Part shown: positions 12,908 to 28,878 of the stretch, one piece after another | Layout of the letters: the number at the start of each line of letters is the position of its first letter | Numbering within the stretch: position 1 is the stretch's first letter | Source: a virus | Length of the DNA stretch: 29,039 nt | Strand: one strand, 5' to 3' | IMG/VR virus record: IMGVR_UViG_3300022752_000293 | Span: 1 to 29,039 of that record | The notes under the pieces: model-generated | Seen by the model: the letters and a program-made list of their open reading frames with translations, nothing else | Told to the model about the DNA's origin: nothing | The model's database searches: none | Position numbers and translations under genes: made by a program

Positions 12908-12909
12908 TC

Positions 12910-14319: not shown

Positions 14320-14321
14320 TC

Positions 14322-16484
14322 GTGGCCGATCAAATCTATAAAGTACGCGACCCGCAAGGAAACATCCGAGAAATTAAAGGCCCAGCAGGCGCTAGTGACG
14401 AAGAAGTTATCGCCCAAGCGCAACGTTTGTTTGCTACGCCTGCCGAATTTCCCGCGCCTGAACCTCGCAGTGAAGGTATGCCTACGGCACCACGGCAACA
14501 GTTAACGCCTGGGCAGCAGATGTACCAAAACATTCGCCCTTACGTTGCGCCAACCATAGAAGCACTTGGTTCGGCAGGAGGCGCGTTGCTTGGAGGTGCA
14601 GCTGCGCTGCCTGCGGGGCCGATTGGTGTTGCTACAGGCGGTGTTGCTGGTGCTGGTTTAGGTTATGGCATAGCTAAAGAAGCGCTTGAGTTAGGCGACG
14701 TTTATCTTGGTGGCAAACAACCACGCCAAGGCGAAGCCGCCATAACAACGCCGGTACAAAACGTGCTTGAAGGCGCCACTTACGAAACAGGTGGTCGTGT
14801 AGTTGGGCCATTGATTGGTAAGACTATTGGCATGTTTGCTGACTTTAAAAACGTAGCGCAAAACAAAGCTGCGTCATTAGCGCGTGCATCGTTAGGTAAT
14901 GATCTTGAGCAGACTTTAAGTATTCTTCGCAATGCGCCACCTAACGCTAGCGTGGCTGAGGTAACGGCAAAAATTCAAAACCCAACGTGGCAAGCGTTTA
15001 TACGTAACGCATTAGAGAAAAGTCCGTCAGGCGCTCAGTACCTAAATAAATTTGCCACGATGAGCCACGACGAAGGGGTTAATGAGTTAGCCAAACTCGC
15101 GGGCGGCGCAACAGCAACAGACGTACGCGCTACAACCGATTTGATGAAACAAACACTGCGCGACATCACAAGCCCTGCACGTCAAGCGGCGTTAAACCGT
15201 GCCAATCTTGGTCAGCAAGTCGCGCAATATGAAGCTGAGGCAGGTAAGTTAAGCGCTGAGGCGGCGGCTAAGGTGCAAGAGGTGCGTCGGCTTATCGATC
15301 TTGGTGATCATGCGGCAGCAGCAGCGCGTCTACAAGAGATTAAAGCAGGCATACCCGCAGGCTCACGTTTCGCTCCTGCTAAGGTGCAACCTGGTTACTC
15401 AAACACTTGGGCGGCTACATTTACATACCCTGGTAAGTTAGCGCAAATGTCTGATGAGTGGGCGTCAAAAGCAGCGGAAGCGTCGCTTGATTTAGGTCAA
15501 GGCGCGAGGTTTGCTCAGTCGGCTGCGGACAGCTTACGGCAGGCGGGCATCAAACCGCTTAAGGGCGACGAGATAGTGAGCCAGATTCGCGGTGTGTTAA
15601 ACAACCCTGAATTTGCAGGCAATGATTTGCTTAGTGGCGCGGCTAAGAACGTCGCTAACGATATTGCTCAATGGACTAAAAATGGCGGCATCATTGACGC
15701 TAGAGCGTTAGACGCCATTCGTAAGAACTCAATTAACGCTGCGGTGCAACAACTGCGTCCAGGCGTAGACGCTACAACGCAGCGCAACTTAGCGGCTAAA
15801 GTAACGTCAGAATTAAAACCCACACTGATTAACGCTATCGAAGCGGCGGGGGGTAAAGGTTACCGTGAATACCTTGATGAGTTTTCTAAAGGTATGCAAA
15901 AAATTGCTGAGACTAAGCTGACCGGCGAAGCCGCTAGGCTATGGAAAACAGATAAGGACGCGTTTGTGCGCTTGGTGCAAAACGAAGCGCCTGATGTGGT
16001 GGAAAAATTTCTTGGCCCAGGCAAATACAACATCGCCACTGAACTAAGCGAGAACACGATCTCGACGTTGCAGTCGCTAGCGTCTAAGCGCATCAACCAA
16101 CTTGCTTCTAGTAAACAAGCGTCAGAAGGCCAAAAAGCACTGGTGACATTATTAGAAGAAAACACATCTAATTTTCGTCTACCGTCGTTGCTTAATTTTT
16201 GGGCTACAGCCACTAACCGAACAATTAGTGAACTAGAAAAAGCAGTTGGTGCTAAGACCATGAAAATTTTAGCCGACGCTATGCAATCGCCTCAGACCGC
16301 TAAGAACTTGCTTGAGAAATTACCCGCGCAAGAGCGCAGTAACGTACTGCGTATCATTAGCAACCCTTCATCGTTTAAAAACAAGGCTGCACAGCGTGCT
16401 GCTGAATTTATGCGAAGCGGCGCAACCACAACCTCCATCAATGCGTTAGCATCTGAGCCTAGCGAAAATGCGCTAATTGATTAA
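14322..16484 (+). CDS. Large ejection / internal virion protein (gp16-like position)
   Basis: The 720 aa protein starts at GTG with GAGG just upstream and 2 nt after the previous stop. Residues 4-37 (YKVRDPQGNIREIKGPAGAS then DEEVIAQAQRLF) form a small N-terminal module seen in phage internal proteins. A Gly/Ala-rich hydrophobic stretch at about 80-118 could insert in a membrane. The remainder is long helical Ala-rich sequence (for example 180-350 and 400-640). In P22 the third ejection protein, gp16, crosses the membrane and helps DNA entry. The tripartite gene order and composition support that role. No lytic transglycosylase motif is visible. The remote family link is not proven. Confidence 0.62.
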   Translation: MADQIYKVRDPQGNIREIKGPAGASDEEVIAQAQRLFATPAEFPAPEPRSEGMPTAPRQQLTPGQQMYQNIRPYVAPTIEALGSAGGALLGGAAALPAGPIGVATGGVAGAGLGYGIAKEALELGDVYLGGKQPRQGEAAITTPVQNVLEGATYETGGRVVGPLIGKTIGMFADFKNVAQNKAASLARASLGNDLEQTLSILRNAPPNASVAEVTAKIQNPTWQAFIRNALEKSPSGAQYLNKFATMSHDEGVNELAKLAGGATATDVRATTDLMKQTLRDITSPARQAALNRANLGQQVAQYEAEAGKLSAEAAAKVQEVRRLIDLGDHAAAAARLQEIKAGIPAGSRFAPAKVQPGYSNTWAATFTYPGKLAQMSDEWASKAAEASLDLGQGARFAQSAADSLRQAGIKPLKGDEIVSQIRGVLNNPEFAGNDLLSGAAKNVANDIAQWTKNGGIIDARALDAIRKNSINAAVQQLRPGVDATTQRNLAAKVTSELKPTLINAIEAAGGKGYREYLDEFSKGMQKIAETKLTGEAARLWKTDKDAFVRLVQNEAPDVVEKFLGPGKYNIATELSENTISTLQSLASKRINQLASSKQASEGQKALVTLLEENTSNFRLPSLLNFWATATNRTISELEKAVGAKTMKILADAMQSPQTAKNLLEKLPAQERSNVLRIISNPSSFKNKAAQRAAEFMRSGATTTSINALASEPSENALID

Positions 16485-16498
16485 CCGATGAGATAGTG

Positions 16499-16717
16499 AT
16501 GGATCAAGACCTTGACACACGCTTATCAGTCCACGAAGCGGTCTGCGCGGAACGGTACAAAGCTATTGAGCAATCGTTCAATCGTGTCGAGGAACGTTTT
16601 GATGATGGTTCAGCAAAAATGAAGCGTCTTGAGTATCTGCTGTACGCCGTCATGGTTGCCGTGCTTCTTGGCCCTGGCGCTGCGGCCATTTTTTTTAAGA
16701 AGCTCTTAGGTGTTTAA
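16499..16717 (+). CDS. Single-span holin-like membrane protein (XhlA-like)
   Basis: The ATG at 16499 gives 72 aa; a GTG 3 nt upstream gives one more residue. The N-terminal two thirds are charged and heptad-like (RLSVHEAVCAERYKAIEQSF, then NRVEERFDD). One hydrophobic span (about 47-67, LLYAVMVAVLLGPGAAAIFF) and a KK-containing tail follow. This layout matches haemolysin XhlA-like phage proteins that cooperate with holins at lysis. It overlaps the endolysin gene by 8 nt, which strongly supports a lysis role. It could be the holin itself, an antiholin or a spanin-like partner. Confidence 0.6.
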   Translation: MDQDLDTRLSVHEAVCAERYKAIEQSFNRVEERFDDGSAKMKRLEYLLYAVMVAVLLGPGAAAIFFKKLLGV

Positions 16718-17090
16718 GCTAGGCAAACGATCGATCGAACGTCTGCAAGGCGTTCATCCTGATCTTGTCAAGGTCGTTGAGCGTGCGATTGAGATGTCGC
16801 CCGTAGACTTTACGGTGCTTGAGGGCTTACGCTCACCTGAGCGTCAACAGACTTTAGTAGCATCAGGCGCAAGTCAGACGCTTAACAGCCGCCACATCAC
16901 AGGCCACGCCGTTGATCTTGGTGCATGGGTAGACAATCAAGTTGATTGGTCTTGGCCTTTGTACCATAAGATCGCCAACGCCATGAAAGCCGCAGCGAAT
17001 GAGTTAGGCGTCACTATCGTGTGGGGCGGCGATTGGAAGACGTTTAAAGACGGCCCGCATTTTGAACTAGACCGAAAGTATTACCCATAA
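16710..17090 (+). CDS. Endolysin, peptidase M15 (L-Ala-D-Glu / D-Ala carboxypeptidase type)
   Basis: The 126 aa protein has the M15 signature SRHITGHAVDL with His62 and Asp69 as zinc ligands (SxHxxGxAxD), and the C-terminal GPHFEL with His117 as the third ligand. Upstream LEGLRSPERQQ (38-47) matches the arginine-containing strand of the family. It lacks a signal peptide, so it would depend on a holin to reach the wall, where it cuts peptide cross-links in peptidoglycan. The start is GTG, overlapping the preceding holin-like gene by 8 nt; the next gene begins at the stop as TAATG. Length is typical of single-domain phage M15 endolysins. Confidence 0.88.
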   Translation: MFKLGKRSIERLQGVHPDLVKVVERAIEMSPVDFTVLEGLRSPERQQTLVASGASQTLNSRHITGHAVDLGAWVDNQVDWSWPLYHKIANAMKAAANELGVTIVWGGDWKTFKDGPHFELDRKYYP

Positions 17091-17455
17091 TGGACCCGCT
17101 AACAATCCTCGCAGCGTTTGGCCCTCTGGCTGTTGATTTTGGTAAGTCCTTGATCGGTCGGTTTATACAGACTGAAGGGTATAAGCCTACTAACATCACT
17201 GAGTACGTGCGGATGCGCGAACTAGACCTTAACATGTTCAAGGCGATGAACGATGCCGGTGGTGCTAACCCGTCCTACCCGTGGGTCGAGGCGATCGTAC
17301 GGCTGATGCGACCAGGCGTGGCACTCATTGTCCTTACGACGTGGGCGACGCTAAAGCTCAACGGTCAGTCATCAGAGTCGGTTGATAACTTCGCAGCCGC
17401 CGTAGGTTTCTATCTCTTTGGCGACCGGACGCTGTTTTACTCAAAGAAGCGCTAG
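17090..17455 (+). CDS. Holin-like membrane protein (3-TM gene-transfer-agent holin type)
   Basis: The 121 aa protein has hydrophobic segments near 3-25 (LTILAAFGPLAVDFGKSLIG), 74-92 (PGVALIVLTTWATLKL) and 98-112 (FAAAVGFYLFGDRTLF). The arrangement RPxxALxxL...W followed by an FGDR ending resembles small holins of three membrane spans found beside M15 or other endolysins. It directly follows the endolysin with TAATG overlap. It probably forms or regulates the lesion that releases the endolysin, alone or with the XhlA-like protein. A conserved alternative is a tail or head accessory membrane protein. Its stop codon overlaps the stop of the convergent gene within CTAG. Confidence 0.58.
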   Translation: MDPLTILAAFGPLAVDFGKSLIGRFIQTEGYKPTNITEYVRMRELDLNMFKAMNDAGGANPSYPWVEAIVRLMRPGVALIVLTTWATLKLNGQSSESVDNFAAAVGFYLFGDRTLFYSKKR

Positions 17456-17637
17456 AGCGCCCTTGCTTCTCTCAGCAACTCCATCCGCTCGCGTGCCGTA
17501 CGCAGTGCTGTGTAGCGTTGGTGCAGCCGCTCTAGTATCGAGATGCGCTTGGCGCCTGCTCGCTCCTCATTAAGCAAACTCAACACCTGATCCTCGGTCA
17601 TAAGCGCCAGTTCTTTGTTGAGCTTTCGCCAGTTCAT
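17452..17637 (-). CDS. Small helical phage protein, unknown function
   Basis: The 61 aa protein, starting MNWRKLNKELALMTEDQVLS, is almost wholly helical and charged (LNEERAGAKRISILERLHQRY). Proteins with this opening and a LLNEERxGxxRxxILxRLHQR core are known as small accessory proteins in many phages of Gram-negative bacteria. The ATG at 17637 is preferred over an upstream TTG because it begins the recognisable conserved part; GGAG lies 13 nt upstream, a long spacing. The 5' end overlaps the preceding gene by 68 nt out of frame. It is the last gene of the minus operon. Function is unknown. Confidence 0.62.
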   Translation of the reverse strand: MNWRKLNKELALMTEDQVLSLLNEERAGAKRISILERLHQRYTALRTARERMELLREARAL

Positions 17638-17782
17638 ACTCAATTTTGTTCTCCAGTTCGGTAATCTGCTTTTGTATGCGCTCAAGTGCGCGGTACTGCT
17701 GCCGCAACATCTTCTCGTGCTGATGCTGCTCGGCTTTAGCGGCTTTAAGTTTAGTCTGCCATAAACTAAGTCGGGAGGTCAT
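17570..17782 (-). CDS. Small coiled-coil protein, unknown function
   Basis: The 70 aa protein has a strongly helical central part (QTKLKAAKAEQHQHEKMLRQ then YRALERIQKQITELENKIEY) with heptad spacing of Leu/Ile, so a coiled coil is likely. The start is ATG with AAGGA at the right distance (AAGGACCGCTATG on the minus strand). It overlaps the upstream 65 aa gene by 17 nt and the downstream 61 aa gene by 68 nt. No known domain is recognised. Position at the end of an early-type operon suggests an accessory function. Confidence 0.6.
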   Translation of the reverse strand: MTSRLSLWQTKLKAAKAEQHQHEKMLRQQYRALERIQKQITELENKIEYELAKAQQRTGAYDRGSGVEFA

Positions 17783-17963
17783 AGCGGTCCTTAATCACTC
17801 GCATGATGTCTTTAGGCGTCATGTTGGGTATGGCGGCGATCAGTAAGCAATCCATCGCCACCTTTTGCGCGAACTGGCGCATCTCCTTGACGGTCATCAC
17901 GGCGATCGGCAACTGTTCAGTCGCCGCGCTGCGTATCATGCCGATTAACTCGTCGTCAGTCAT
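17766..17963 (-). CDS. Small phage protein, unknown function
   Basis: The 65 aa protein is mostly helical, with TDDELIGMIRSAATEQLP near the start and MTPKDIMRVIKDRYDLPT at the end. A hydrophobic middle (VAMDCLLIAAIPN) is too short for a confident membrane span. Its start overlaps the stop of the winged-helix gene as ATGA, and its stop overlaps the coiled-coil gene. Tight packing makes it a genuine gene. Function cannot be stated. Confidence 0.58.
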   Translation of the reverse strand: MTDDELIGMIRSAATEQLPIAVMTVKEMRQFAQKVAMDCLLIAAIPNMTPKDIMRVIKDRYDLPT

Positions 17964-18292
17964 GGCCTGGCGCCTAAGTTAAACGGGTTGTGGTACTGAA
18001 ACTTAGGTGCTTTGGTCTTCTTTATCTTTTTTTCCGTCGCGGAGTAGACGTACGCCCAGCCCAGCTTGTTGCATACGACAGACTGACGCAGCACACGATC
18101 GCGCTCGATCACGCCTTGCTCAAGTAAAGGCATCAGCGAGTTGGATATAGACTTCGTTGTCATGCCCAACTTGCTCGCTAACTCCTTGAGCGTCACGGGC
18201 GTGGTTCTTGTCTGCATATATTTCAGACACGCTTGACCCCTATCGATCTTAGCCTTGGTTCTCAGTTTGTGGATACTCATACTTGTGGTCAT
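17960..18292 (-). CDS. Winged-helix DNA-binding protein, candidate regulator
   Basis: The 110 aa protein has the pattern LKYMQTRTTPVTLKELASKL then GMTTKSISNSLMPLLEQGVI, which reads as a winged-helix fold: helix, recognition helix (TTKSISNSLMPLLEQG) and a beta-wing (VIERDRVLRQSV). The C-terminus is Lys-rich (EKKIKKTKAPK). Such proteins bind DNA as MarR/IclR-like regulators or act in replication initiation. It is embedded in the minus operon, joined by ATGA overlaps on both sides. A plausible job is autoregulation of the divergent promoter near 20880, which contains a palindrome. That link is inference. Other options include a host-takeover transcription factor. Confidence 0.6.
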   Translation of the reverse strand: MTTSMSIHKLRTKAKIDRGQACLKYMQTRTTPVTLKELASKLGMTTKSISNSLMPLLEQGVIERDRVLRQSVVCNKLGWAYVYSATEKKIKKTKAPKFQYHNPFNLGARP

Positions 18293-18537
18293 TGCTCACC
18301 CCTTGCTCTGATGGCGTCGGAAAAATTCAGCAGCACCGTCGCAGTCCATCTTTGCAAGCGATGGTCAGCATCCATTGAGCTGAGGTCTACGTTCAAGAGC
18401 AAATTCGCACACGCCTCACGCTCATGATCGGCAACAAGGGCAGCGAAGCGGGCAAAGCCCTCAAGCCCCACTATTTCTGCCACGCCGTCAGCAAACCCAG
18501 CCTCCCGCGCCATGCGGATGATGTCGTCTCTATCCAC
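18289..18537 (-). CDS. Small conserved phage protein (DIIRMAREAGF type)
   Basis: The 82 aa protein starts at GTG and opens RDDIIRMAREAGFADG, then LEGFARFAALVADHEREACA and ends FSDAIRARGEQ. This ordered set (DIIRMAREAGF, RFAALVA-EREAC, AIRARG) is common in small phage proteins of proteobacterial viruses, though no function is assigned. It is helical and soluble with no catalytic motif. The start overlaps the preceding stop codon region and its stop forms ATGA with the winged-helix gene, so expression is coupled. Confidence 0.65.
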   Translation of the reverse strand: MDRDDIIRMAREAGFADGVAEIVGLEGFARFAALVADHEREACANLLLNVDLSSMDADHRLQRWTATVLLNFSDAIRARGEQ

Positions 18538-18838
18538 CGTTCTTCTCCTTTAGTTTGGCTTCGACGGCTTCAAGACGCTGAATGTCTGTACCGTAAAATG
18601 CCTCAACCAATTTTTCTTTTTCCTCATCCGTCAGCCCAACCCATTCACGCTCTCTTGGTGGGTGAACCATCGTTTCACCTTCCCATACTGCTCCGCATAC
18701 GCAAGTCAATTCACGCTTTGATGGTGCGGCGTAAAGTGGTTCAACCCAATTACCTTCCGTTGGTTTACAAGCAAATTTGTTTGATAATTTTCCGTCAGGT
18801 GATGTAGAAAACCACGCCACTGGATCTTCCTTGTTCAT
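18530..18838 (-). CDS. Small conserved phage protein with Cys pair, unknown function
   Basis: The 102 aa protein starts NKEDPVAWFSTSPDGKLSNK and contains WVEPLYAAPSKRELTCVCGA; the 'PVAWF...PLYAAP' pattern is frequent in small phage proteins. The CVCG segment gives a Cys pair; with no second pair visible a zinc site is doubtful. The C-terminal half (LTDEEKEKLVEAFYGTDIQR then LEAVEAKLKEKN) is charged and helical. It overlaps both neighbours by a few nucleotides. Function is unknown. Confidence 0.62.
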   Translation of the reverse strand: MNKEDPVAWFSTSPDGKLSNKFACKPTEGNWVEPLYAAPSKRELTCVCGAVWEGETMVHPPREREWVGLTDEEKEKLVEAFYGTDIQRLEAVEAKLKEKNGG

Positions 18839-19044
18839 TGCTCCCTCGCTTTCAACATAGCATCTGCAATTTTGTATGCGTTGCGTGAAACATCTCCTTC
18901 ATGGCTGTATTTCTGCGCCAGTGCTTGCATTGCCTTAGCTGCAAAGTAATCGCGCAGGGTCATGCCGACATCGTGCCCACTTGGGCTGATGCCGTTTATG
19001 TATTGCGTTGTCGGAAACGCTGGCCTGCCTGTGTCTATGTTCAT
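18835..19044 (-). CDS. Small conserved phage protein, unknown function
   Basis: The 69 aa protein contains GRPAFPTTQYINGISPSGHD followed by GMTLRDYFAAKAMQAL and AYKIADAMLKARE. The combination 'GxAFP...GMTLRDYFAAKAMQ' with a terminal AYxxADAMLxAR is a widespread small protein of phages and prophages of Gram-negative bacteria, without assigned function. Both ends make ATGA-type overlaps with neighbours. It is soluble and partly helical. Confidence 0.7.
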   Translation of the reverse strand: MNIDTGRPAFPTTQYINGISPSGHDVGMTLRDYFAAKAMQALAQKYSHEGDVSRNAYKIADAMLKAREQ

Positions 19045-19280
19045 GCTTTCTCTCCTGTTGCTTTAGCGATGGCGGCTCGGGCACGCTTTGCCTTGTGCCA
19101 GTCTCGGTCCGGTTGAATGCTGTTCAAGAGCTCAACGACTGAAGCCAGCAGATCCTGATTCACCTCATGCAATCGGCGCAGTTCGTCGGCGGCTTCTCCG
19201 CATAGACCCGTGTGGCTGAATTGCACGTCAAGTTCTTCTAGCGCATCAGCCAGCACTAAGGCTTTGGGTTGTAAGTTCAT
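19041..19280 (-). CDS. Small phage protein, unknown function
   Basis: The 79 aa protein is helical (LVLADALEELDVQFSHTGLC, AADELRRLHEVNQDLLASVV) and ends with a basic stretch (AKRARAAIAKATG). The pattern AxxLRRLHxxNxxLL occurs in small phage proteins. AGAGGA immediately upstream on the minus strand supports the ATG. A 22-nt gap separates it from the helicase gene, and its stop overlaps the next start. Function is unknown. Confidence 0.62.
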   Translation of the reverse strand: MNLQPKALVLADALEELDVQFSHTGLCGEAADELRRLHEVNQDLLASVVELLNSIQPDRDWHKAKRARAAIAKATGEKA

Positions 19281-19302
19281 GTGTTCCTCTCATTTTTTAA
19301 AT

Positions 19303-20613
19303 TCACTTCAACGCCTCCAATGCAATGTTGCTAAGATTTCTTTTATCGTGCAGCGCCGTCCAGATGCGCTCGTCGATGGCGTCCTTCGTCATAAGGACGT
19401 AGACCCACACGTCGCGCTGCTGGCCGGATCGATGCAATCGTCCAACGGTCTGTTCGTACAACTCAAGTGACCACGGCAAGGACAAAAAGACCATGTGGCA
19501 ACCTCCGAACTGCAAGTTAAGGCCGTGACCAGCGGATTTTGGATGCACCGCCATAAGCGAAATGTTGCCAGCGTTCCATCGTCCAATGGCGTCAGGGTCG
19601 TCCAAAACGGCAAGATGTTTGTATCGTCGTTTGAGTTCATTCAATTCCTCAATGTATTGGTAAACAATGATCGTGTTAGCCCGTTGGTTTTCCTGCAACA
19701 GCTCATCCAACGCGTCGAACTTATGTGAGCTAAACCAAACCGTTGACGGCGCGTACACAAAACCGGATGACATCTGTTGCAACTTTTGAGTGACGACAGC
19801 AGCGTTTTGTGCAATCGCTTGCGCGTTGTCAAACAACACCACAAAGTCACGCTTCATCGTGTCGTACGGCTCACGATTGATCAACTCAACCGGCACATGA
19901 ACCGTGTGCAGCGCAGGCAACGTGTCCGTGTACTGGCCCGGATCTAACAAGAACGTCGCCGATTGAATGCGCTTCATCACGCGTTCCAATGCGCCGGGCA
20001 GCGGCGTCCAATCGTCAAACCCAGCGTAAGTATTAAGACTAAAGTATTGCTGCATAAACGCACCTTTGCTGCGGCCTAACAATTGTTGGTCGATAATCTT
20101 GCACTGGCCGAACACATCCTCAAGACCGTTGCTGGTAAAGCTGCCGGTCAGCCCCCAACGGATCGTGAACCGATCGATGATCTTATGAAGCGCTTTAAAA
20201 CGTGCGCCTGATGGGTTCTTTAACTTAGTCAGCTCATCAAACACAACCCCATCAAACCCATCTAATGACCGCGCAGCAAGCCATTGCAGGTTGTCGTAGT
20301 TGGTTACAACAATATCGGCGTCGCTTTGTAGCGCGGCTATACGGTTGGCAGGTGATCCTGTAGCTGTGGCAAGCGCCAAACCTGGTGACCACTTCACTTG
20401 CTCGATGGGCCATACGTCGCGGGCCACGCGCAGCGGTGCGATCACCAGCCAACGCTTGACATGGCCTGCGGCAATCATGTCTCGCATAGCCGTCAACGTG
20501 ATCGCTGTCTTGCCGGCCCCCACGGGCGCTAGCACCATCGCACGGTCATGCTCAAACAAAAAGTCAGCCGCGTCTTCCTGATAAGGACGCAGTTTCAATC
20601 CACGCATCAACAT
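19303..20613 (-). CDS. SNF2/DEAD-type superfamily 2 helicase
   Basis: The 436 aa protein has a Q-motif-like LKLRPYQEDAADFLF, Walker A APVGAGKT (29-36), motif Ia (LVIAPLRVARDVWP), motif II DELTKLKN (126-133, DEL instead of DEAH) and motif III GLTGSF. Motif V is KSAGHGLNLQFGG and motif VI EQTVGRLHRSGQQ. These define a SNF2-like SF2 ATPase that translocates on double-stranded DNA. The ATG at 20613 is chosen because GTGGAG lies 8 nt upstream; a longer frame to 20700 overlaps the nuclease extensively. The VRR-NUC gene precedes it, overlapping by 50 nt, and the two commonly occur as a pair in phages. They probably act together in DNA repair, recombination or genome processing. Confidence 0.88.
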   Translation of the reverse strand: MLMRGLKLRPYQEDAADFLFEHDRAMVLAPVGAGKTAITLTAMRDMIAAGHVKRWLVIAPLRVARDVWPIEQVKWSPGLALATATGSPANRIAALQSDADIVVTNYDNLQWLAARSLDGFDGVVFDELTKLKNPSGARFKALHKIIDRFTIRWGLTGSFTSNGLEDVFGQCKIIDQQLLGRSKGAFMQQYFSLNTYAGFDDWTPLPGALERVMKRIQSATFLLDPGQYTDTLPALHTVHVPVELINREPYDTMKRDFVVLFDNAQAIAQNAAVVTQKLQQMSSGFVYAPSTVWFSSHKFDALDELLQENQRANTIIVYQYIEELNELKRRYKHLAVLDDPDAIGRWNAGNISLMAVHPKSAGHGLNLQFGGCHMVFLSLPWSLELYEQTVGRLHRSGQQRDVWVYVLMTKDAIDERIWTALHDKRNLSNIALEALK

Positions 20614-20854
20614 CGTCTTTGCTCCACAAACATACATACCGTTGACCAAGCCGAGCCATATCGTCAGCAAACACCTTCTGCAACGGCGACAGACGGCCAC
20701 CAGGCGCTTTCAACTCAACGAACCATACGACACCATCAGGCAAGCAGACCACGCGGTCAGCCACGCCTCGATGAGCGGGGCTAACAAACTTGTACGCCAT
20801 GCCGCCACAAGCTGCAACGCGCTTGACCAGATGGGCTTCAATGTGTTTTTCCAT
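20564..20854 (-). CDS. VRR-NUC domain nuclease
   Basis: The 96 aa protein (from the ATG at 20854; 100 aa from 20866) is a minimal VRR-NUC endonuclease of the PD-(D/E)XK fold. Visible catalytic elements are an N-terminal Glu helix (MEKHIEAHLVKRV), Asp33 in VADRVV, Glu47-x-Lys49 in VWFVELKAPGG, and Gln59 in LSPLQ. Standalone VRR-NUC proteins cut branched DNA such as Holliday junctions. It sits at the start of the minus operon and overlaps the helicase by 50 nt. The ATG at 20866 lies inside the predicted -10 box (20862-20867), so 20854 is preferred, which would make the message nearly leaderless. Confidence 0.85.
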   Translation of the reverse strand: MEKHIEAHLVKRVAACGGMAYKFVSPAHRGVADRVVCLPDGVVWFVELKAPGGRLSPLQKVFADDMARLGQRYVCLWSKDDVDAWIETASLSGRRG

Positions 20855-20861
20855 GCCACAA

Positions 20862-20890
20862 ATCATACCATGTCAAAAAGTTCTTGACAA
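20862..20890 (-). promoter_or_regulatory. Minus-strand sigma70-type promoter of the nuclease-helicase operon
   Basis: On the minus strand TTGTCA (20890-20885) is followed after 17 nt by TATGAT (20867-20862). Each box matches the consensus at 5 of 6 positions with ideal spacing. Transcription would begin about 20855, next to the ATG at 20854. Confidence 0.6.
20871..20889. promoter_or_regulatory. Imperfect palindrome overlapping both divergent -35 elements (candidate operator)
   Basis: The 19-nt sequence TGTCAAAAAGTTCTTGACA has perfect 6-nt arms (TGTCAA and TTGACA) and further symmetric AA/TT pairs; only 3 of 19 positions break symmetry, the centre among them. It spans the + strand -35 box and most of the minus-strand one, as expected for a repressor or activator site. 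Confidence 0.45.
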
Positions 20891-20911
20891 CTTTTTTATT
20901 TGTGTCATACT
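20884..20911 (+). promoter_or_regulatory. Plus-strand sigma70-type promoter of the replication operon
   Basis: TTGACA (20884-20889) is a perfect -35, followed by a 16-nt spacer and CATACT (20906-20911), preceded by TGT, an extended -10 feature. A start near 20918 leaves a leader of about 28 nt carrying AAGGAA before the ATG at 20946. Confidence 0.6.
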
Positions 20912-20945
20912 GGCATCTCCATTCACTCAACTCAAGGAAACTCAA

Positions 20946-21104
20946 ATGGAATTGAAACTTACGATGGACGAAGCCAAGAAGATCTTACTGGAGTGGGCTC
21001 GCGCCAAGTTTGGCGATGAGTTCAACACGGTGTCTGAGGGTGGCTACACCTACAACAAAGACTTCACCTTTCTTAAAGTCGAGGGCAACGATGAAGCACA
21101 GTAA
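20946..21104 (+). CDS. Small phage protein, unknown function
   Basis: The 52 aa protein starts at the ATG at 20946 with AAGGAAA (20935-20941) at good spacing; an in-frame extension to 20790 would read antisense through the nuclease gene and is rejected. Sequence MELKLTMDEAKKILLEWARA and EGGYTYNKDFTFLKVEG suggests an alpha helix followed by a beta hairpin. It is the first gene after the + strand promoter and overlaps the next by 14 nt. No domain is recognised. Confidence 0.6.
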   Translation: MELKLTMDEAKKILLEWARAKFGDEFNTVSEGGYTYNKDFTFLKVEGNDEAQ

Positions 21105-22206
21105 CATCGTCGGCGGTTCAACCGCCAGCCGCGTGATCAACTGCCCTGGCAGCGTCGCATTGGTTCAACGGATGCCGCCTCAAGTGGAAAGCAAGTATGC
21201 CGCTGAGGGTACGCTGTTACATTCTTGCATCGAATCGTTGCTTAGCGATTCAGTCATGGACGATGTTTCAGATGCGTTCAAACTGAGCGACGACCAGATT
21301 GACAAGTTGCAATTTTGCATTGATGCCATTGATAAAATTGACCCTGACGAATCGATGACGTTTCTTTTAGAGGTCGAGGTCAATTTTGAGGGCGTCAAAG
21401 GTCTTGAGAACGTCTTTGGCAACGTCGATCTGATCGGCAGGGTAGGTGACCGCGTGATCGTGTTGGATTGGAAGTTTGGTGATGGCGTAATTGTGGAAGC
21501 CGAGGAGAACTATCAGGGGCTATTTTACGCGGCTGCGGCTAGATCGATGGACAAGATGCGTTGGGTGTTTGATGGCGCAACAGAGATTGAGATCGTTATC
21601 GTTCAGCCCTTCGCTATTCGGCGTTGGGTGACGACATTTGAGCGTGTTGCTGCCTTCCAAGCAGAACTGCAAACCGCTGTGATGCTTGCTAACAAACCCG
21701 ACGCGCCGCTTGAGATCGGTGATTGGTGCAGATGGTGTACTGCCAAGCCGATCTGCCCTAAAATGACCGGCGAGATTGACCGCGTCGTGCATCTAAAGTT
21801 AGAGGCGCTTGCACCTGAAGAACTGTCCGCTGCGCTAATCGCTGCGGAACGGTTGGAATCGTTCATTGCAGACGCACGTAAACTGGCGCAAGATCGGCTA
21901 GAGAAGGACATGCCGGTTCCGGGCTTTAAGTTGGTTGCCAAACGAGCTGTTCGGCAATGGATCGATGAAGCTGCGGCGTCTGCTGCGCTGGCAAGTCTTG
22001 GCGTCAGCCAGAATGAGTTGTTTAAGAAAGAATTACTTAGCCCTGCTCAAGCGGAGAAGGTGCTAAAAAAGAGCAAGCTAGCATTGCCCGACGATCTTGT
22101 TGTGGCTGTGTCGAGCGGCAGCACGTTAGCGCCGGAGAGCGATCCCCGGCCTGCCGTGCTTAACGTGGGTACGCATTTGACCGCTGCCCTTTCTAAACTC
22201 CAGTAA
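21091..22206 (+). CDS. DUF2800 PD-(D/E)XK nuclease, AddB/Cas4-like with Fe-S cysteines
   Basis: The 371 aa protein starts at the ATG at 21091 with GAGG 6 nt upstream. An N-terminal Cys18 in INCPGS is followed by AAEGTLLHSC (a GTxxH motif, His44). The nuclease core has GNVDLIG (Asp113), VLDWKFG (Asp126-x-Lys128) and ENYQGLFYA (Gln142). A C-terminal cluster CRWCTAKPIC gives Cys213-x2-Cys216-x5-Cys222. This Cys(N)...CxxCx5C order matches the Fe-S 'staple' of AddB and Cas4 nucleases. The expected activity is exonuclease trimming of DNA ends in phage recombination or replication. The family name DUF2800 is recalled from its pattern and its place upstream of phage polymerases. Confidence 0.82.
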   Translation: MKHSNIVGGSTASRVINCPGSVALVQRMPPQVESKYAAEGTLLHSCIESLLSDSVMDDVSDAFKLSDDQIDKLQFCIDAIDKIDPDESMTFLLEVEVNFEGVKGLENVFGNVDLIGRVGDRVIVLDWKFGDGVIVEAEENYQGLFYAAAARSMDKMRWVFDGATEIEIVIVQPFAIRRWVTTFERVAAFQAELQTAVMLANKPDAPLEIGDWCRWCTAKPICPKMTGEIDRVVHLKLEALAPEELSAALIAAERLESFIADARKLAQDRLEKDMPVPGFKLVAKRAVRQWIDEAAASAALASLGVSQNELFKKELLSPAQAEKVLKKSKLALPDDLVVAVSSGSTLAPESDPRPAVLNVGTHLTAALSKLQ

Positions 22207-22217
22207 AGGAAATCGTG

Positions 22218-22862
22218 ATGTCTAATTTAGTAACGTTTAGTCAAGCAAACCTCCCCGCCGTCTCAAGTCTTTCAACAGCGCTGCGTGCGTTGGAGCAGGA
22301 CGTTGGACTCAACGGCATTGTCATTCTCAAAATGGACAAAACCGGCCATTGGGTGTTCGGCGCTGACCAGACTGAAGTTGAGGATGGTTCAACGTGGGCA
22401 GTCAATCCGTTCTCGTTTGTCCACGGCTATATTGCGTGGGGCGACGGTGAGGTGTTGGCTGAGAAAATGGTCTCGGTATCACAGCCGTTGCCTGAGATCG
22501 ATGTTGCGCCGCCCGGTGCAAAAAAGGGTTGGGAAACCCAAGTAGGCATGTCGCTGAAGTGTTTAGATGGCGACGACGCAGGCATGGAGGCGCGGTACAC
22601 CACGACATCTGTCGGTGGCAAACGTAGCGTCCAGACGCTTGCTCTTGCGATTGCTGCACAGGTTGAAAAGGATCAGTCCAACCCTGTGCCAATCGTGCAT
22701 TTGAAGAAAGACCATTACACGCACAAATCTTATGGCAGAATTTTTACGCCGGTATTTGATGTTGTGAAGTGGGTGAGCATGGACGGTAAGTCAGAAGACG
22801 AACCGCAGGCGTCAGCAGAAGCAGCTGCTGATGACGCTCCGCGTCGTCGTCGCCGCGCCTAA
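22218..22862 (+). CDS. Candidate single-stranded DNA-binding protein (unrecognised family)
   Basis: The 214 aa protein has AAAGGA at 22205-22210, with 7 nt to the ATG at 22218; a GTG 3 nt earlier is less well spaced. The body is beta-rich with aromatic residues (GHWVFGADQTEVED, VHGYIAWGDGEVLAEKM, HYTHKSYGRIFTPVFDVVKW). A disordered acidic stretch (SEDEPQASAEAAADDAP) and an Arg-rich end (RRRRRA) follow. Phages with DUF2800 and PolA usually encode a ssDNA-binding protein (DUF2815 type) at this position, but this sequence does not look like DUF2815. The role is inferred from gene order; a recombination mediator is equally possible. Confidence 0.42.
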   Translation: MSNLVTFSQANLPAVSSLSTALRALEQDVGLNGIVILKMDKTGHWVFGADQTEVEDGSTWAVNPFSFVHGYIAWGDGEVLAEKMVSVSQPLPEIDVAPPGAKKGWETQVGMSLKCLDGDDAGMEARYTTTSVGGKRSVQTLALAIAAQVEKDQSNPVPIVHLKKDHYTHKSYGRIFTPVFDVVKWVSMDGKSEDEPQASAEAAADDAPRRRRRA

Positions 22863-22866
22863 TCGG

Positions 22867-22897
22867 AAGGTCACGGCAGAAATGCCGTGGCCTTTTT
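22867..22897 (+). terminator. Rho-independent terminator with GAAA loop
   Basis: GGTCACGGCA (22869-22878) pairs with TGCCGTGGCC (22883-22892) through one G-U pair around the GNRA loop GAAA, and AA (22867-22868) extends the stem with TT. It runs directly into TTTTT (22893-22897). Structure and U-run are textbook quality. Confidence 0.88.
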
Positions 22898-22912
22898 CTT
22901 TTTGGAGAATGA

Positions 22913-23104
22913 ATGATGGATCATCCCTATGAAATCATTTTGCAGCTGTTGCGTGAGTACAAACATCTATGTGATTGTGTTGACTCGGATGCTGCGCTCG
23001 AAATTGCGATGCAAATCCGTTTGGAAGCTCAAAAACTTGTTGTGCTGGCTGCACAAAATGTTGACCCGTCGATTGACACGACTCAAATGAATTTGGATTT
23101 ATGA
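22913..23104 (+). CDS. Small phage protein, unknown function
   Basis: The 63 aa protein (62 if the second ATG at 22916 is used) is helical: EIILQLLREYKHLCDCVDSD then AALEIAMQIRLEAQKLVVLA. GGAG lies 5-9 nt upstream. The stop overlaps the polymerase ATG as ATGA, so translation is probably coupled to the polymerase. A Cys pair (CDC) is the only potential metal site. It lies between the internal terminator and polA. Function is unknown. Confidence 0.55.
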   Translation: MMDHPYEIILQLLREYKHLCDCVDSDAALEIAMQIRLEAQKLVVLAAQNVDPSIDTTQMNLDL

Positions 23105-25047
23105 CAATTTTGTGGGTTGACTTTGAGACACGCAGTCGTTGCGACCTAACAACCAAAGGCGTTTACAACTACGCGCAAGACGCAAGCACGGACGTGCTGT
23201 GCATGTCCTATGCGTTCGATGATGAGGAGGTGGCAACGTGGACGCCTGCGTTGCCCTTTCCTGACCGTTTACGTCAGCACACCGGTCAGATTAGGGCGCA
23301 TAACGCAGCGTTTGAACGGCTAATCTTTTGGTACGTGCTGCACATCAATTACGACCTTGAGCAGTTCTATTGCACGGCTACCCAAGCGCGGGCCAACTGT
23401 GCGCCTGGTTCGCTTGAGGATGTGGGACGGTTCGCAAGCGCTGACATGCGTAAAGACTATCGTGGAGCGCAACTTATTCGACGTTTGTGTATGCCGCAGG
23501 CAGACGGCAATTTTTACCGCGACGAGGCATTGTTTGCTGAGATGGTGGCTTATTGTGAGCAAGACGTTCGCGCTATGCGCGTTATCTCACAAGCTATGCG
23601 CGATTTGTCGGCTGAAGAGCTTGCTGACTACCATGTGAATGAGCGCATCAACGATCGTGGCGTGCTGGTTGATGTGCCGCTGTGTAAGGCAGCAGTGCAG
23701 TACGCGAGCGATGAGCTGGTCGAGATCGAGCAGATTGTGGCTGACGTGACGCAGGGCGAGATCATGAGCGTTCGCAGTCCCGCGATGAAGCAGTGGGTCA
23801 TGAATCGGGTAGGAAGCGAGGCGTTGGCTCTGATGGAGTCATACAAAGATGGCGAGAAGAAATATTCGATTGATAAGACCGTGCGAGCTAACTTGCTTGC
23901 GATGGACAATCCTGAGCAAGTGCCCCCGGACGTGGCAGAAGTCATCCAGTGCGCTGACGATCTATGGGCGTCGAGCGTGGCGAAGTTTGCCCGCTTGGCT
24001 GCGCTGGCTGACGATGAGGATCATCGGGTGCGTGGTGCGTTTGTGTTTGCCGGTGGGTCGGCCACGGGCCGAGCGTCATCTTATGGTGCACAGGTGCATA
24101 ATTTTGCCCGTCAGTGTGCTGACGATCCTGAAGCTGTCCGTACCGCGATGGTGCGCGGGCATCAGATCGTGCCGACCTATGGGCGACGCGTCACGGACGT
24201 GCTCAAGGGAATGCTGCGCCCTGCGCTGATGCCTGCGCCTGAGCATGTACTGATCGTCGCTGATTGGGCGGCGATCGAGGCGCGCATGAACCCGTGGCTG
24301 TCAGCGCACGCTACCTCGGAAGCTAAGTTGGACTTGTTTCGCACGGGCGCAGACATCTACAAACACAACGCCAGCCGGACGTTTAACGTGCCGGTGGACG
24401 CGATCGATAAAGAGCAACGCCAGATCGGCAAGGTCCAAGAGTTGGCGTGCGGGTACGGTGGCGGCGTGGGGGCGTTTGCATCGATGGGGCGCATCTATGG
24501 CGTTAACTTACCTGAAGCTGACAGCAGGCGCATGGTGGAGGCGTGGCGACGCGCTAACCCGTGGGCTGTGCATTACTGGCAGGCGCTTGAGACGTCGTAC
24601 ATGCGCGCGATGAGGAACCCAAAGTCTGAGTTTAAGGCTGGCCGTGTGACTTACTATTTTGACTCTCAGCACCTCTGGTACGCACTGCCTTCAGGACGCA
24701 TCCTATGCTACCCCTATGCTCGCATCGACGCTGATGGTGTGTCCTACGCCAAGGCGTCATGGAAGCCTGCGCAGGACGCCAAGGAATGGCCTCGCGCGCG
24801 GTTGTGGAAGGGTCTAGCGGCAGAGAACATCTGTCAGGCTGCGGCTAACGACATTCTGCGCGCGTCGCTGCGCCAACTGACTGATGTAGTGCTGCACGTC
24901 CATGATGAGATTGTGCTTGAGGTGCCAGCGTCGCGGGCTGAAGAAGCTGCGCAGGCGCTGCACCATGTGATGTGTACACCGCCAGCATGGGCGCAGGGGT
25001 TGCCTTTAGATGCTGAAGTTTCAACCATGACAAGGTATGGAAAATGA
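23101..25047 (+). CDS. DNA polymerase I family A with 3'-5' exonuclease
   Basis: The 648 aa protein has exonuclease motifs I (VDFET, Asp7/Glu9), II (HNAAFE, about 67-72) and III (YCEQDV, Tyr151/Asp155). Polymerase motif A is ADWAAIEARM with Asp388 and motif C is HDE (601-603). Motif B is RQIGKVQELACGYG with Arg440, Lys444 and Tyr452; spacing fits E. coli Pol I Arg754, Lys758 and Tyr766, so residue 448, equivalent to Phe762, is Leu. No 5'-3' exonuclease domain is present, as in most phage enzymes. It replicates the phage genome. Start overlaps the upstream stop (ATGA), and the stop overlaps the primase-helicase start. This is a single complete gene. Confidence 0.93.
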   Translation: MTILWVDFETRSRCDLTTKGVYNYAQDASTDVLCMSYAFDDEEVATWTPALPFPDRLRQHTGQIRAHNAAFERLIFWYVLHINYDLEQFYCTATQARANCAPGSLEDVGRFASADMRKDYRGAQLIRRLCMPQADGNFYRDEALFAEMVAYCEQDVRAMRVISQAMRDLSAEELADYHVNERINDRGVLVDVPLCKAAVQYASDELVEIEQIVADVTQGEIMSVRSPAMKQWVMNRVGSEALALMESYKDGEKKYSIDKTVRANLLAMDNPEQVPPDVAEVIQCADDLWASSVAKFARLAALADDEDHRVRGAFVFAGGSATGRASSYGAQVHNFARQCADDPEAVRTAMVRGHQIVPTYGRRVTDVLKGMLRPALMPAPEHVLIVADWAAIEARMNPWLSAHATSEAKLDLFRTGADIYKHNASRTFNVPVDAIDKEQRQIGKVQELACGYGGGVGAFASMGRIYGVNLPEADSRRMVEAWRRANPWAVHYWQALETSYMRAMRNPKSEFKAGRVTYYFDSQHLWYALPSGRILCYPYARIDADGVSYAKASWKPAQDAKEWPRARLWKGLAAENICQAAANDILRASLRQLTDVVLHVHDEIVLEVPASRAEEAAQALHHVMCTPPAWAQGLPLDAEVSTMTRYGK

Positions 25048-27341
25048 CGACCTTCATTGATTTTTTAACGTCGCTCGCGCCGGCGGGCGAAACAGCTTTA
25101 TTGGTACGTCAAAAACCGCAGTTGAAAAACGGTCGAATGCAGTTTCATTCTGACGGTGCGTTGAAGTGTGTGTGGCCTGCGTATTTACCTAGCAGCGCAA
25201 AGATAAGGCCCGATCAGGCATGGTACGGCAACACGGCGTCGTTTATTGTGGATCGATTCAAGGATGGTCATGTCTCAGCGTCGGCAGCCAACTGTGAATA
25301 CTGTCTGTTGATGGTGCTTGATGACATCGGAACCAAGAGCAAGACCCCGCCGCTTGAACCAACCTGGAAGATGGAGACGTCAACGGGTTCGTTTCAATGG
25401 GGGTATGCGTTTTCAGACCAACCAACCAAGGCTGAGTTTGCAGCAGCAGTAAAAGCGATTGCGATTGCAGGGTTTACAGATCCAGGTGCCATTAACGCGG
25501 TGCGTAATTTTCGCCTACCTGGTTCGGTCAATCTCAAGCCGGGGCGTGGCAACTTTGCTTCGCAACTGGTGGAGTTTCACCCAAAACGTGAGTTTACATT
25601 AGATCAGATTTGCGACGCGTTTGGCGTTGTGCCTGTTGAGGCTGATAGCACGAACTACATACCGATACGAATTGCTGACTCGGGCAACGATGATGTGTTT
25701 GCATGGTTGCTTGATAGAGGGCTGGTGCTTTCGAGGCCCAACCCTGAAGGCTGGGCGGGTATTGTTTGCCCCAACAACGGCGAACACAGCGACGGCAATC
25801 CAGAGGGTCGTTACATGCCAGCTACGCGGTCATTTTGTTGCTTGCATTCGCATTGCGTTGATTTTGACACGAAAATTTTTTTGAAATGGGTCGCAGACAA
25901 CGGTGGCCCAAACCATCAACACGGATTGCGTGATGATTTGATTGCGGTGACTATGAACGACGCCCTACAAAAACTTGAACCCACTGATTTTTTTACTGCT
26001 GATGCTGCGAAAATTATTGAAGATGTTGAGCGCAAAGAGTTAGGCCGAATTGAGAAGAACGCTTGGTATGAGCGTTTTGCCTACGTGATGGCTGACAACG
26101 CATTTTTTGATATGCTGGATCGGCGTGAGGTATCGCGGCCTACGTTTGATGCTTTGTACCGGCACATCAGCTGCACCAGCGTTCGCACGGGGCGCAAGGT
26201 TGAAGCGAGCATCTGTTTTGATGAGAACCGGCAGGCTAAAGGTGCTTGCACGCTCGTTGGGATCACCTACGCAGCGGGCGATGATGTGCTTGTGGCCCGC
26301 GACGGCGAAGTGTTTGGCAATCGTTGGCGCGACGCACGGCCAGCACCAGGTTCGGGTGACATTGCGCCGTGGCTGAGGCATTGCGAAACGCTTGTGCCAG
26401 AAGTAGCCGAGCGCGAGCATTTGTTCGACGTCATGGCATTTAAAGTCCAGCATCCTGAAGTTAAAGTCAATCATGCTGTACTGCATGGCGGCGATCAAGG
26501 TTGCGGTAAGGATACGTTGTGGGCTCCATTTATTTGGGCGGTTTGTGGCCCAGGATTGAAGAATCGCGGCTTGCTGGATAACGACTCGCTATCGTCGCAA
26601 TGGGGGTATCAATTAGAGTCGGAGATCCTCATCATCAACGAATTGAAGGAACCCGAAGCGGCTGCGCGGCGGGCATTAGCTAACAAACTCAAACCGATCA
26701 TCGCTGCGCCTCCAGATATGCTGCCGATCAATCGCAAGGGCTTGCATCCATACGACATGGCGAATAGATTGTTTGTTCTTGCATTTTCAAATGATCCTGT
26801 TCCGATTTCAATCGATTCACAGGATCGGCGCTGGTTTTGTGTGTGGTCGTCTGCACCACGCATGGATCCGAAAGTCGCATCAGACCTATGGACGTGGTAC
26901 AAGAGCGGTGGCTTTGCAGCGATTGCCGGCTGGCTGCACCAGCGCGACGTGTCTGCGTTCAACCCTGCCGCAGCGCCGCGATGGACAGAGTTCAAGTCCA
27001 ACCTGGTCGAGCATGGTATGTCTATTGCGGAGTCTTATCTGGTGGATATGATGCGACAGCGCGTAGGTGAATTCAGCAAGGGCGTCGTGGGATCTCCCTT
27101 TCACGCGTTATGTGATCGCGTCGCCGGAGCTGCCCCAGCAGGGGTTAAAGTGCCTCAAGCGGCGCTGCTCCATGCGCTTAAAGAGGCGGGCTGGGTCGAT
27201 ATGGGCCGGATTGCGTCGGGTGAATTGACGTCTAAGAAGCATATTTTTGCTGCACCGGATTTAGTCAATAAAGTATCCAAGTCTGAGCTTAGAAGGCTTG
27301 TCGAAGATGCGCCGGCGGCGCGAATGGTGGTCGTGAAATGA
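25044..27341 (+). CDS. Primase-helicase (RepB-like primase plus SF3/DUF5906-like helicase)
   Basis: The 765 aa protein has an N-terminal archaeo-eukaryotic-primase-like domain (CLLMVLDDIGTKSK with Asp93/Asp94, a SFQWGYAF strand, and RNFRLPGSVNLKPG about 154-167). A Cys/His cluster follows (Cys242, His248, Cys265, Cys266, His268, His270, Cys271), likely zinc-binding. The C-terminal ATPase has Walker A GGDQGCGKDT (482-491, Lys489), an ILIINELKEPE Walker B-like segment (Asn532-Glu533) and NRLFVLAFSNDPVPI with DRRWFCVW, as in DUF5906/SF3-like phage helicases. It unwinds and probably primes the fork for the upstream polymerase. ATGA overlaps occur at both ends. The primase active site is less certain than the helicase. 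Confidence 0.8.
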   Translation: MTTFIDFLTSLAPAGETALLVRQKPQLKNGRMQFHSDGALKCVWPAYLPSSAKIRPDQAWYGNTASFIVDRFKDGHVSASAANCEYCLLMVLDDIGTKSKTPPLEPTWKMETSTGSFQWGYAFSDQPTKAEFAAAVKAIAIAGFTDPGAINAVRNFRLPGSVNLKPGRGNFASQLVEFHPKREFTLDQICDAFGVVPVEADSTNYIPIRIADSGNDDVFAWLLDRGLVLSRPNPEGWAGIVCPNNGEHSDGNPEGRYMPATRSFCCLHSHCVDFDTKIFLKWVADNGGPNHQHGLRDDLIAVTMNDALQKLEPTDFFTADAAKIIEDVERKELGRIEKNAWYERFAYVMADNAFFDMLDRREVSRPTFDALYRHISCTSVRTGRKVEASICFDENRQAKGACTLVGITYAAGDDVLVARDGEVFGNRWRDARPAPGSGDIAPWLRHCETLVPEVAEREHLFDVMAFKVQHPEVKVNHAVLHGGDQGCGKDTLWAPFIWAVCGPGLKNRGLLDNDSLSSQWGYQLESEILIINELKEPEAAARRALANKLKPIIAAPPDMLPINRKGLHPYDMANRLFVLAFSNDPVPISIDSQDRRWFCVWSSAPRMDPKVASDLWTWYKSGGFAAIAGWLHQRDVSAFNPAAAPRWTEFKSNLVEHGMSIAESYLVDMMRQRVGEFSKGVVGSPFHALCDRVAGAAPAGVKVPQAALLHALKEAGWVDMGRIASGELTSKKHIFAAPDLVNKVSKSELRRLVEDAPAARMVVVK

Positions 27342-27526
27342 TGAAATGGCAACAAGACGAAGTGTTGAGAATGGTACGTAAGATCGTAGCCACGCAGGCT
27401 ATGCTACGCACCAAGGCGCAACGCAATCAAATTGATCCTGAGATGATCAAGGTGCGGCTTGATGATGATCTGCTGAATTTGCGCTTGATTTTATCAACGT
27501 ACAAAAACGATAAGCCCGCCTTGTGA
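27338..27526 (+). CDS. Small phage protein at end of replication operon, unknown function
   Basis: The 62 aa protein (61 aa from the second ATG) is helical and charged: WQQDEVLRMVRKIVATQAML then MIKVRLDDDLLNLRLILSTY. The start overlaps the primase-helicase stop (ATGA). Its last codons and stop lie inside the hairpin at 27514-27532, so translation could disturb that hairpin. No domain is recognised. Confidence 0.5.
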   Translation: MMKWQQDEVLRMVRKIVATQAMLRTKAQRNQIDPEMIKVRLDDDLLNLRLILSTYKNDKPAL

Positions 27527-27532
27527 GCGGGC
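27496..27532 (-). terminator. Terminator for the minus-strand metallophosphoesterase operon
   Basis: On the minus strand GCCCGC (27532-27527) pairs with GCGGGC (27519-27514) around a 7-nt loop and leads into TTATCGTTTTT. It lies 26 nt past the stop of the acidic gene. The same stem would also form in + strand RNA, but no U-run follows there. Confidence 0.65.
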
Positions 27533-27557
27533 GTGTCGTTGCGGCGTAAGACGAATT

Positions 27558-27728
27558 TTATTCGTCGTCTTCCACTTCCTCTGCTTCTGCGTCGCGGGCT
27601 TCAACTGCTGCGAGCAGTTTGTCGTACAGACCACTGAGGCCAGAGCTAATTTCTTTGTCGCCCAGCCAGTCAATAATTTCGTCGTATTCAAACTCGGTCA
27701 GATCTACTGATACAAATACGTCGTCCAT
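27558..27728 (-). CDS. Small acidic protein, unknown function
   Basis: The 56 aa protein starts at the ATG at 27728, which has GGGGG upstream; an earlier in-frame ATG at 27740 abuts the previous stop without a ribosome site. Sequence DDVFVSVDLTEFEYDEIIDW and an acidic tail (ARDAEAEEVEDDE) give a strong negative charge. Small acidic proteins of phages sometimes inhibit host DNA-binding proteins by mimicking DNA, but there is no direct evidence here. It follows the phosphoesterase gene in one operon. Confidence 0.55.
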   Translation of the reverse strand: MDDVFVSVDLTEFEYDEIIDWLGDKEISSGLSGLYDKLLAAVEARDAEAEEVEDDE

Positions 27729-27740
27729 GATTACCCCCAT

Positions 27741-28700: not shown

Positions 28701-28733
28701 GATCGGCCCCTCACGTTAAGTTGCGGGGCTTAT

Positions 28734-28763
28734 ACCATATCCATATTGAAATTGTAATGACAA
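28734..28763 (-). promoter_or_regulatory. Candidate promoter of the metallophosphoesterase gene
   Basis: On the minus strand TTGTCA (28763-28758) is followed after 18 nt by TATGGT (28739-28734), with TATAAG (28734-28729) overlapping as an alternative -10. The -35 box is identical to that of the minus-strand promoter near 20885. The region is AT-rich and non-coding. Confidence 0.42.
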
Positions 28764-28788: not shown

Positions 28789-28790
28789 AA

Positions 28791-28804: not shown

Positions 28805-28813
28805 AAGGAGCGA

Positions 28814-28876: not shown

Positions 28877-28878
28877 GG

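Follow-up and report, generated by a model that had tools for sequence, protein, structure and literature searches.

Gene content around the divergent region

The window, by which we mean the whole stretch of DNA analysed here, is a record of 29,039 bp. It holds a divergent control region that belongs to an uncultured tailed phage and lies between two sets of DNA-processing genes. To the left of this region the gene order is nuclease, SNF2 helicase, small genes and a winged-helix gene; to the right it is a 52-aa ORF, a DUF2800 exonuclease and a 215-aa protein. The genes and the terminator discussed below are:

17960-18292, minus strand: winged-helix protein, last leftward gene and candidate regulator (family matches below the cut-off, AlphaFold model)
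19303-20700, minus strand: SNF2-type helicase (phrog_62, E 7.3e-124; PF00176), true start probably later
20564-20854, minus strand: VRR-NUC-like nuclease (vrr), first gene leftward, no clear Shine-Dalgarno (SD) sequence (phrog_93, E 6.7e-28 for the longer ORF 20564-20866)
20946-21104, plus strand: 52-aa ORF, first rightward gene, SD sequence AAGGAA, relatives in some loci
21091-22206, plus strand: DUF2800 / PD-(D/E)XK exonuclease (PF10926, E 9.8e-59; phrog_69)
22215-22862, plus strand: 215-aa protein, last gene before the terminator (phrog_9528)
22865-22896, plus strand: intrinsic terminator, a hairpin with a 14-pair stem and a T-run, between the exonuclease and polymerase genes
23101-25047, plus strand: DNA polymerase I-type gene, beyond the terminator (phrog_17, E 6.4e-92)

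The sequence-only reading had described the rightward genes as a polymerase operon. This is overstated, as a conserved terminator separates the exonuclease from the polymerase genes: a hairpin with a T-run is found in all 23 relatives listed, with changing letters in the stem. The terminator precedes a 63-aa gene and the polymerase gene, and the stretch that joins the exonuclease and polymerase blocks yielded no promoter-like site. The polymerase block would therefore need either read-through or a promoter of another type.

Among the proteins scanned, a subset of the ORFs of a 29-kb record that may be a fragment, there is no integrase or repressor. Elsewhere in the window a leftward metallophosphoesterase gene occupies 27741-28790, accompanied by a promoter-like site (28763-28734) and, around it, by sites resembling terminators.

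Two promoters with overlapping -35 boxes

Two sigma-70-type promoters stand back to back in the divergent region, and a 7-mer is common to both of their -35 boxes. Their elements, and the near-palindrome discussed further below, are:

20884-20890, both strands: shared core TTGACAA, read as TTGACA on the plus strand (20884-20889) and as TTGTCA on the minus strand (20890-20885)
P+, plus strand: TTGACA at 20884-20889, 16-nt spacer, CATACT at 20906-20911, extended -10 TG at 20903-20904, predicted start at about 20918
P-, minus strand: TTGTCA at 20890-20885, 17-nt spacer, TATGAT at 20867-20862, start predicted at the A of the nuclease ATG, about 20854
20875-20879, plus strand: A-tract directly upstream of the P+ -35, resembling a proximal UP element
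20871-20889, both strands: near-palindrome TGTCAA-N7-TTGACA (TGTCAAAAAGTTCTTGACA), 19 nt, 8 of 9 pairs, candidate operator

The two promoters lie on opposite strands and their core elements overlap, with 5 of the 6 bp of each -35 hexamer in common and about 64 bp between the predicted starts. The boxes and the -35 overlap are present where the sequence-only reading had placed them. It had also called both -10 boxes good; the CATACT of P+ is weak, matching at 4 of 6 positions and aided by the TG. The A-tract lies where a proximal UP element of P+ would be expected.

P+ and P- are the two best among 10 promoter-like matches in 12000-29039. This number is not above chance (shuffle mean 13.7), and the whole window has 5 matches of at least 10/12 against a shuffle mean of 4.3; the matrix and spacer weights used for promoter scoring are E. 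coli values and may not match the host. Among 200 shuffled versions of the window, 2 contained a divergent pair of this quality (at least 10/12) with -35 boxes at most 2 nt apart, which makes the arrangement only mildly unlikely. Odd-centred palindromes with 8 of 9 pairs occur 4 times in the window and 1-6 times in each of ten shuffles. On the window alone, the case for the promoter pair is therefore moderate and there is none for the palindrome, whose significance as a single sequence is ruled out by its chance-level frequency.

The promoter region in related loci

Three scans of viral contigs gave 202 loci, and 204 together with MW202483.1 and the window locus. Thirteen were dropped because they had no vrr match (6), had no start codon (6) or were too short (1), leaving 191 with a readable nuclease start and 75 nt upstream. 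These comprise 142 distinct upstream 75-mers and reduce to 61 representatives with less than 80% identity, of which 49 were kept after leaving out 12 without a divergent exonuclease within 700 nt. Of the full set of 191, 172 have the divergent exonuclease within 700 nt and 12 have it at a distance of 863-1391 nt; in the other 7 none was found. MW202483.1 was left out of the counts because its nuclease start is unclear; it has the divergent genes, with the core TTGCACAA.

For the 49 representatives the mean best score is 6.50 for P- and 7.41 for P+. In 200 shuffle sets the means are 4.42 and 4.34 and the maxima 5.03 and 4.97, i.e. both promoters score above all shuffles. The best -35 boxes of P+ and P- are at most 2 nt apart in 19 of the 49 (shuffle mean 5.3, maximum 11) and unshared by the same measure in the other 30. 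In 12 of the 19 sharers TTGTCA and TTGACA overlap as in the window, and TTGCAC/TTGTGC is found among the other sharing pairs; the 19 include one locus with weak scores (L188), one with a different motif (L140) and one with its -10 box 23 nt from the start (L108). Among all 142 distinct upstream regions, 47 contain the core TTGNCAA, and each position from 5 to 9 nt upstream of the core is an A in 46 or 47 of these. The P+ -10 of the relatives is mostly TGnTACAGT.

That the boxes are chance matches and no promoters is suggested by one observation, the number of matches in the window, which does not exceed that in shuffles. The comparison contradicts it: the boxes are conserved across 49 representatives, in a divergent gap and at a fixed distance from a start codon, and we find the chance explanation scarcely credible. 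It is this recurrence that settles the promoter status by comparison, and both promoters are, judged from their sequence, very probably real.

Sharing is scattered over the helicase tree. With 49 rows, 12 changes between sharing and not sharing are needed, and 14 for four classes; the tree was made by a quick method and has many long branches, and its motif-based classes count 20 sharers against 19 by the matrix, with one locus of different geometry (L135) classed as a sharer. The shared core persists across the tree while its letters change.

A second geometry also recurs. In 8 of the 49 representatives the -35 boxes are about 20 nt apart (offset -20 or -21), so that the -35 of each promoter lies near the -10 of the other; L135 and L144 are the clearest cases, and L059 and L067 score weakly. 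Overlap of the promoters may thus be commoner than an exactly shared -35. In L135 and L144 the divergent promoters upstream of vrr are almost perfectly symmetric, with the arms GTATTTGACA and TGTCAAATAC; the -35 of each lies on the -10 of the other, and the nuclease ATG follows after 7 nt. Ten other loci (L022-L025, L028, L053, L054, L061, L078 and L081) carry a P- of the form TGTGCTAAACT-7-ATG, or TGTGTTAAACT, upstream of vrr, and in many of them an inverted repeat TAGCACA ... TGTGCTA spans both -10 boxes. In L109, L113 and L120 the nuclease ATG is so near the core that there is no room for a leftward -10.

The genes next to the promoters vary as well. Across the 49 representatives vrr and the exonuclease are separated by 64-647 nt, and the slot, which is at 20946-21104 in the window, seems to be occupied by various small ORFs. 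A 69-aa protein of the leftward operon (18835-19044) has relatives directly upstream of the exonuclease, in the rightward direction, in L018, L019, L039 and L048, i.e. small genes seem to move between the operons.

A scan of genomes added three MAG contigs, labelled Rhodoferax (L205), Armatimonadetes (L206) and betaproteobacterium (L207). The latter two have a near-identical phage promoter region, TTGTGC-17-TATGAT-6-ATG, and are probably phage contigs binned into MAGs. As two differently labelled contigs carry the same promoter region, the bin labels do not fix the host. In the stretch of L205 that was examined there is no such promoter.

The start of the nuclease message

The nuclease ORF can also be read from 20866. 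This start would lie inside the -10 box of P-, and the proteins of the relatives align from 20854, which on sequence grounds is most likely the true start.

In 28 of the 49 representatives, 6 or 7 nt separate the end of the -10 box of P- from the vrr start codon; in the other 21 the distance is different. In shuffles, a -10 at 5-8 nt from the start is found in 4.0 representatives on average and in 12 at most. Further, the base at -1 is a C in 22 of the 28 leaderless-like cases, compared with 225 of 1421 bases (15.8%) between -30 and -2 of the 49. A calculated SD energy of -5 or lower is found for vrr in 12 of the 49 and for the exonuclease in 41, the medians being -1.7 and -7.4. For the window, vrr has -2.8 and the first two plus-strand genes have -5.4 and -6.4. 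Against a leaderless start, 3 of the 28 leaderless-like cases reach -5.9 or lower. The fixed spacing of the -10 box, the C at -1 and the weak SD together indicate that the vrr mRNA is probably leaderless, with a predicted start at the A of its AUG.

A leaderless start also saves space, and saving space could be all that is behind the overlap. If a gap of about 90 nt between the nuclease and the first rightward gene forces the promoters to overlap, the -35 would be shared without any regulatory role. The distance from vrr to the first SD-led plus-strand ORF is 78-106 nt in 16 of the 19 sharers and at most 110 nt in 33 of the 44 representatives (of 49) in which such an ORF was found, so that compaction of the genome alone could explain the overlap; the repeated loss or gain of sharing on the tree points the same way. 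Compaction does not directly explain why the core stays readable on both strands despite changes of its letters, and it leaves the invariant TGTC arm described below unexplained. We hold it to be possible rather than probable.

The palindrome and the winged-helix gene

The near-palindrome had been described as covering the boxes. It does cover both -35 boxes except for base 20890, and neither of the -10 boxes; it spans most of the shared core and most of the P- spacer. No further copy with up to 2 mismatches exists in the window, and matches with up to 3 mismatches are fewer than expected by chance. This single copy speaks against an operator, as phage repressors often act at more than one site.

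The arms TGTCAA-N7-TTGACA are found without mismatch in 21 of the distinct upstream regions, which represent 34 loci. Within these, TGTCAAAAA is invariant and the neighbouring bases, including those between the arm and the -10 box, vary. Both the TGTC arm and the A-tract are unchanging in the 21 sequences, and neither promoter needs the TGTC. The group includes one remote member, L021, which is identical to the window over 22 nt (TGTCAAAAAGTTCTTGACAACT); the VRR proteins of the two are 65.5% identical. Two other exact-arm matches, in L117 and L118, lie inside the exonuclease match and were treated as chance. The left arm was also considered as a second leftward -35 box; by eye, no -10 box lies at the right distance.

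The candidate regulator is the 110-aa winged-helix protein, whose gene closes the leftward operon. Its sequence has matches below the cut-off to HTH_Crp_2, Sta1 and Lrs14, and it falls outside the MarR/Lrs14 families as delimited by their cut-offs (Sta1 30.1 bits against 80, Lrs14 28.7 against 90). The AlphaFold model (pLDDT 75.6) has weak structural matches to folds of the Lrs14 and MarR types, with a best E-value of 2.9e-3 and none at or below 0.001. Contigs fetched twice by the scans were deduplicated by sequence before the gene was counted. Of 13 regions that have the palindrome and at least 4.5 kb of DNA downstream, 12 carry the gene; of 95 without the palindrome, none does. Shorter pieces with the palindrome add 4 with the gene and 6 that are too short or lack it. 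The palindrome group is mostly one clade, so the association may be due to common descent.

The sequence-only reading had suggested that one regulator may control both operons. In favour of this are an arm that is invariant in 21 sequences without being needed by the promoters and the winged-helix counts (12 of 13 against 0 of 95); the restriction to mostly one clade and the exception of L021 weaken it. In L021 the gene is absent from the locus and from the whole 23.4-kb record, although such records may be fragments. That the palindrome is an operator and the winged-helix product its regulator is our conjecture from these patterns. An operator at this position would overlap both -35 boxes and would repress both promoters, not choose between them.

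It could also be that there is no operator here, the left arm being a by-product of common descent and of an UP-like A-tract plus a -35 box, and that the winged-helix protein regulates something else. Chance alone would give the window palindromes this good, outside the clade the TGTC is lost while A-tract and core remain, and L021 has the palindrome without the gene. What this explanation does not account for is the invariance of the TGTC beside variable bases in 21 distinct sequences, and the identity of TGTCAAAAAGTTCTTGACAACT between the window and L021 despite the divergence of their nucleases. We rate it at somewhat below an even chance.

A model of the control region

We consider it likely that the two divergent replication and recombination blocks are controlled jointly from this one compact region, with alternating promoters and a leaderless vrr message. 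The sigma-70-type RNA polymerase of the host would use the 7-bp core TTGACAA as a -35 box in either direction. From P+ it would produce a leadered, SD-led message for the 52-aa protein, the exonuclease and the 215-aa protein, and from P- a message that probably begins at the nuclease AUG and continues through the SNF2 helicase, the small genes and the winged-helix gene.

The sequence-only reading had held that RNA polymerase could not occupy both promoters at once. The geometry of the -35 boxes agrees with this, as does PMC4207663, which says so for other overlapping promoters, and occupancy by two polymerases should be sterically implausible. With one polymerase at a time on the core, initiations would be shared by alternation, and both promoters would probably be active together at a fixed ratio, without excluding each other. 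If a regulator binds the 19-bp palindrome in the window's own relatives, it would lie over the spacer of P- and the two -35 boxes, so that neither direction could be transcribed; the most plausible case is the winged-helix product acting in negative feedback.

The same reading had gone further and proposed that the two operons may be mutually exclusive. This does not follow, as exclusive occupancy does not imply exclusive expression. In the E. coli bidirectional promoters with a shared -10 described in PMC12825309, competition is slight at basal activity and becomes marked only after one direction has been strengthened. A true switch would have the occupancy of one promoter shut the other, with a regulator tipping the balance, so that each infected cell makes either the nuclease-helicase set or the exonuclease set. 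The overlap of the -35 boxes fits such a switch, as do two statements in PMC4207663: that only one of two overlapping promoters is bound by polymerase, and, citing other work, that unequal promoters together with a regulator that acts very differently on each give a switch. The two promoters here have about equal scores (12.1 and 10.8) and the candidate operator would block both. Further, the E. coli promoters need one side strengthened for marked competition, and both gene sets look like DNA-processing genes that are likely needed in one infection. We regard a switch as improbable.

A more far-reaching form of the alternating model is that TTGACAA, TTGCACAA and TTGTGCAA have been selected as direction-neutral -35 boxes that split RNA polymerase between the two sides. 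A bound polymerase would go left or right, and with one polymerase and two directions the ratio of the leaderless nuclease-helicase message to the leadered exonuclease message would be fixed by the two -10 boxes. In the window's clade the palindrome would have grown onto the core, letting the product of the winged-helix gene at the end of the leftward operon close both directions. We regard this extension as rather unlikely.

Significance and comparison with known systems

Bidirectional bacterial promoters are, in the papers cited here, described mainly as symmetric -10 elements, and here the sharing is in the -35. Because the shared -35 returns in altered letters across a broad range of uncultured phages, it offers natural variants for testing whether competition sets expression ratios. 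The region is only 50 bp, small enough for complete testing. A probably leaderless nuclease message would in addition extend the phage leaderless messages known for repressors. Titles and the beginnings of abstracts yielded no paper on this region, and a narrow search for shared -35 boxes yielded none either.

Divergent promoters that overlap, phage messages without a leader and bidirectional promoters each have known examples. The present case differs in that the -35 is shared, that this sharing recurs among relatives although the letters change, and that the predicted leaderless gene codes for a nuclease.

Leaderless mRNAs are described for lambda cI and tetR (PMC4965119) and for cI and cro of the telomere phage PY54 (PMC4488713). 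Lambda PRM/PR and PY54 cI/cro resemble the window in having divergent phage promoters in a short gap, a leaderless mRNA and an operator, the leaderless mRNA being predicted and the operator a candidate in the window. In lambda and PY54 the leaderless genes code for repressors, with operators that serve a lysogeny switch, whereas the window has a predicted leaderless nuclease, a shared -35 and a candidate regulator only. The genes tetR and tetA are a divergent pair. The Tn-borne tetR/tetA regions share with the window a leaderless mRNA, that of tetR (PMC4965119, as above), the window's being predicted.

In plasmid pLS20, according to PMC4207663, the divergent promoters Pc and Pr overlap and cannot both be occupied, as we expect for the window. 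There the -10 and -35 of one promoter are thought to coincide with the -35 and -10 of the other, and the regulator RcoLS20 has been shown to act with looping. This geometry resembles that of L135 and L144, not that of the window.

In the E. coli class of bidirectional promoters, as in the window, one symmetric element is read both ways and steric competition is possible (PMC12825309). PMC10268837 defines this class by divergent starts with 7-25 bp between them and by -10 elements that are reciprocal; with predicted starts about 64 bp apart, the window falls outside it. The E. coli promoters share a -10, while in the window it is the -35 that is shared.
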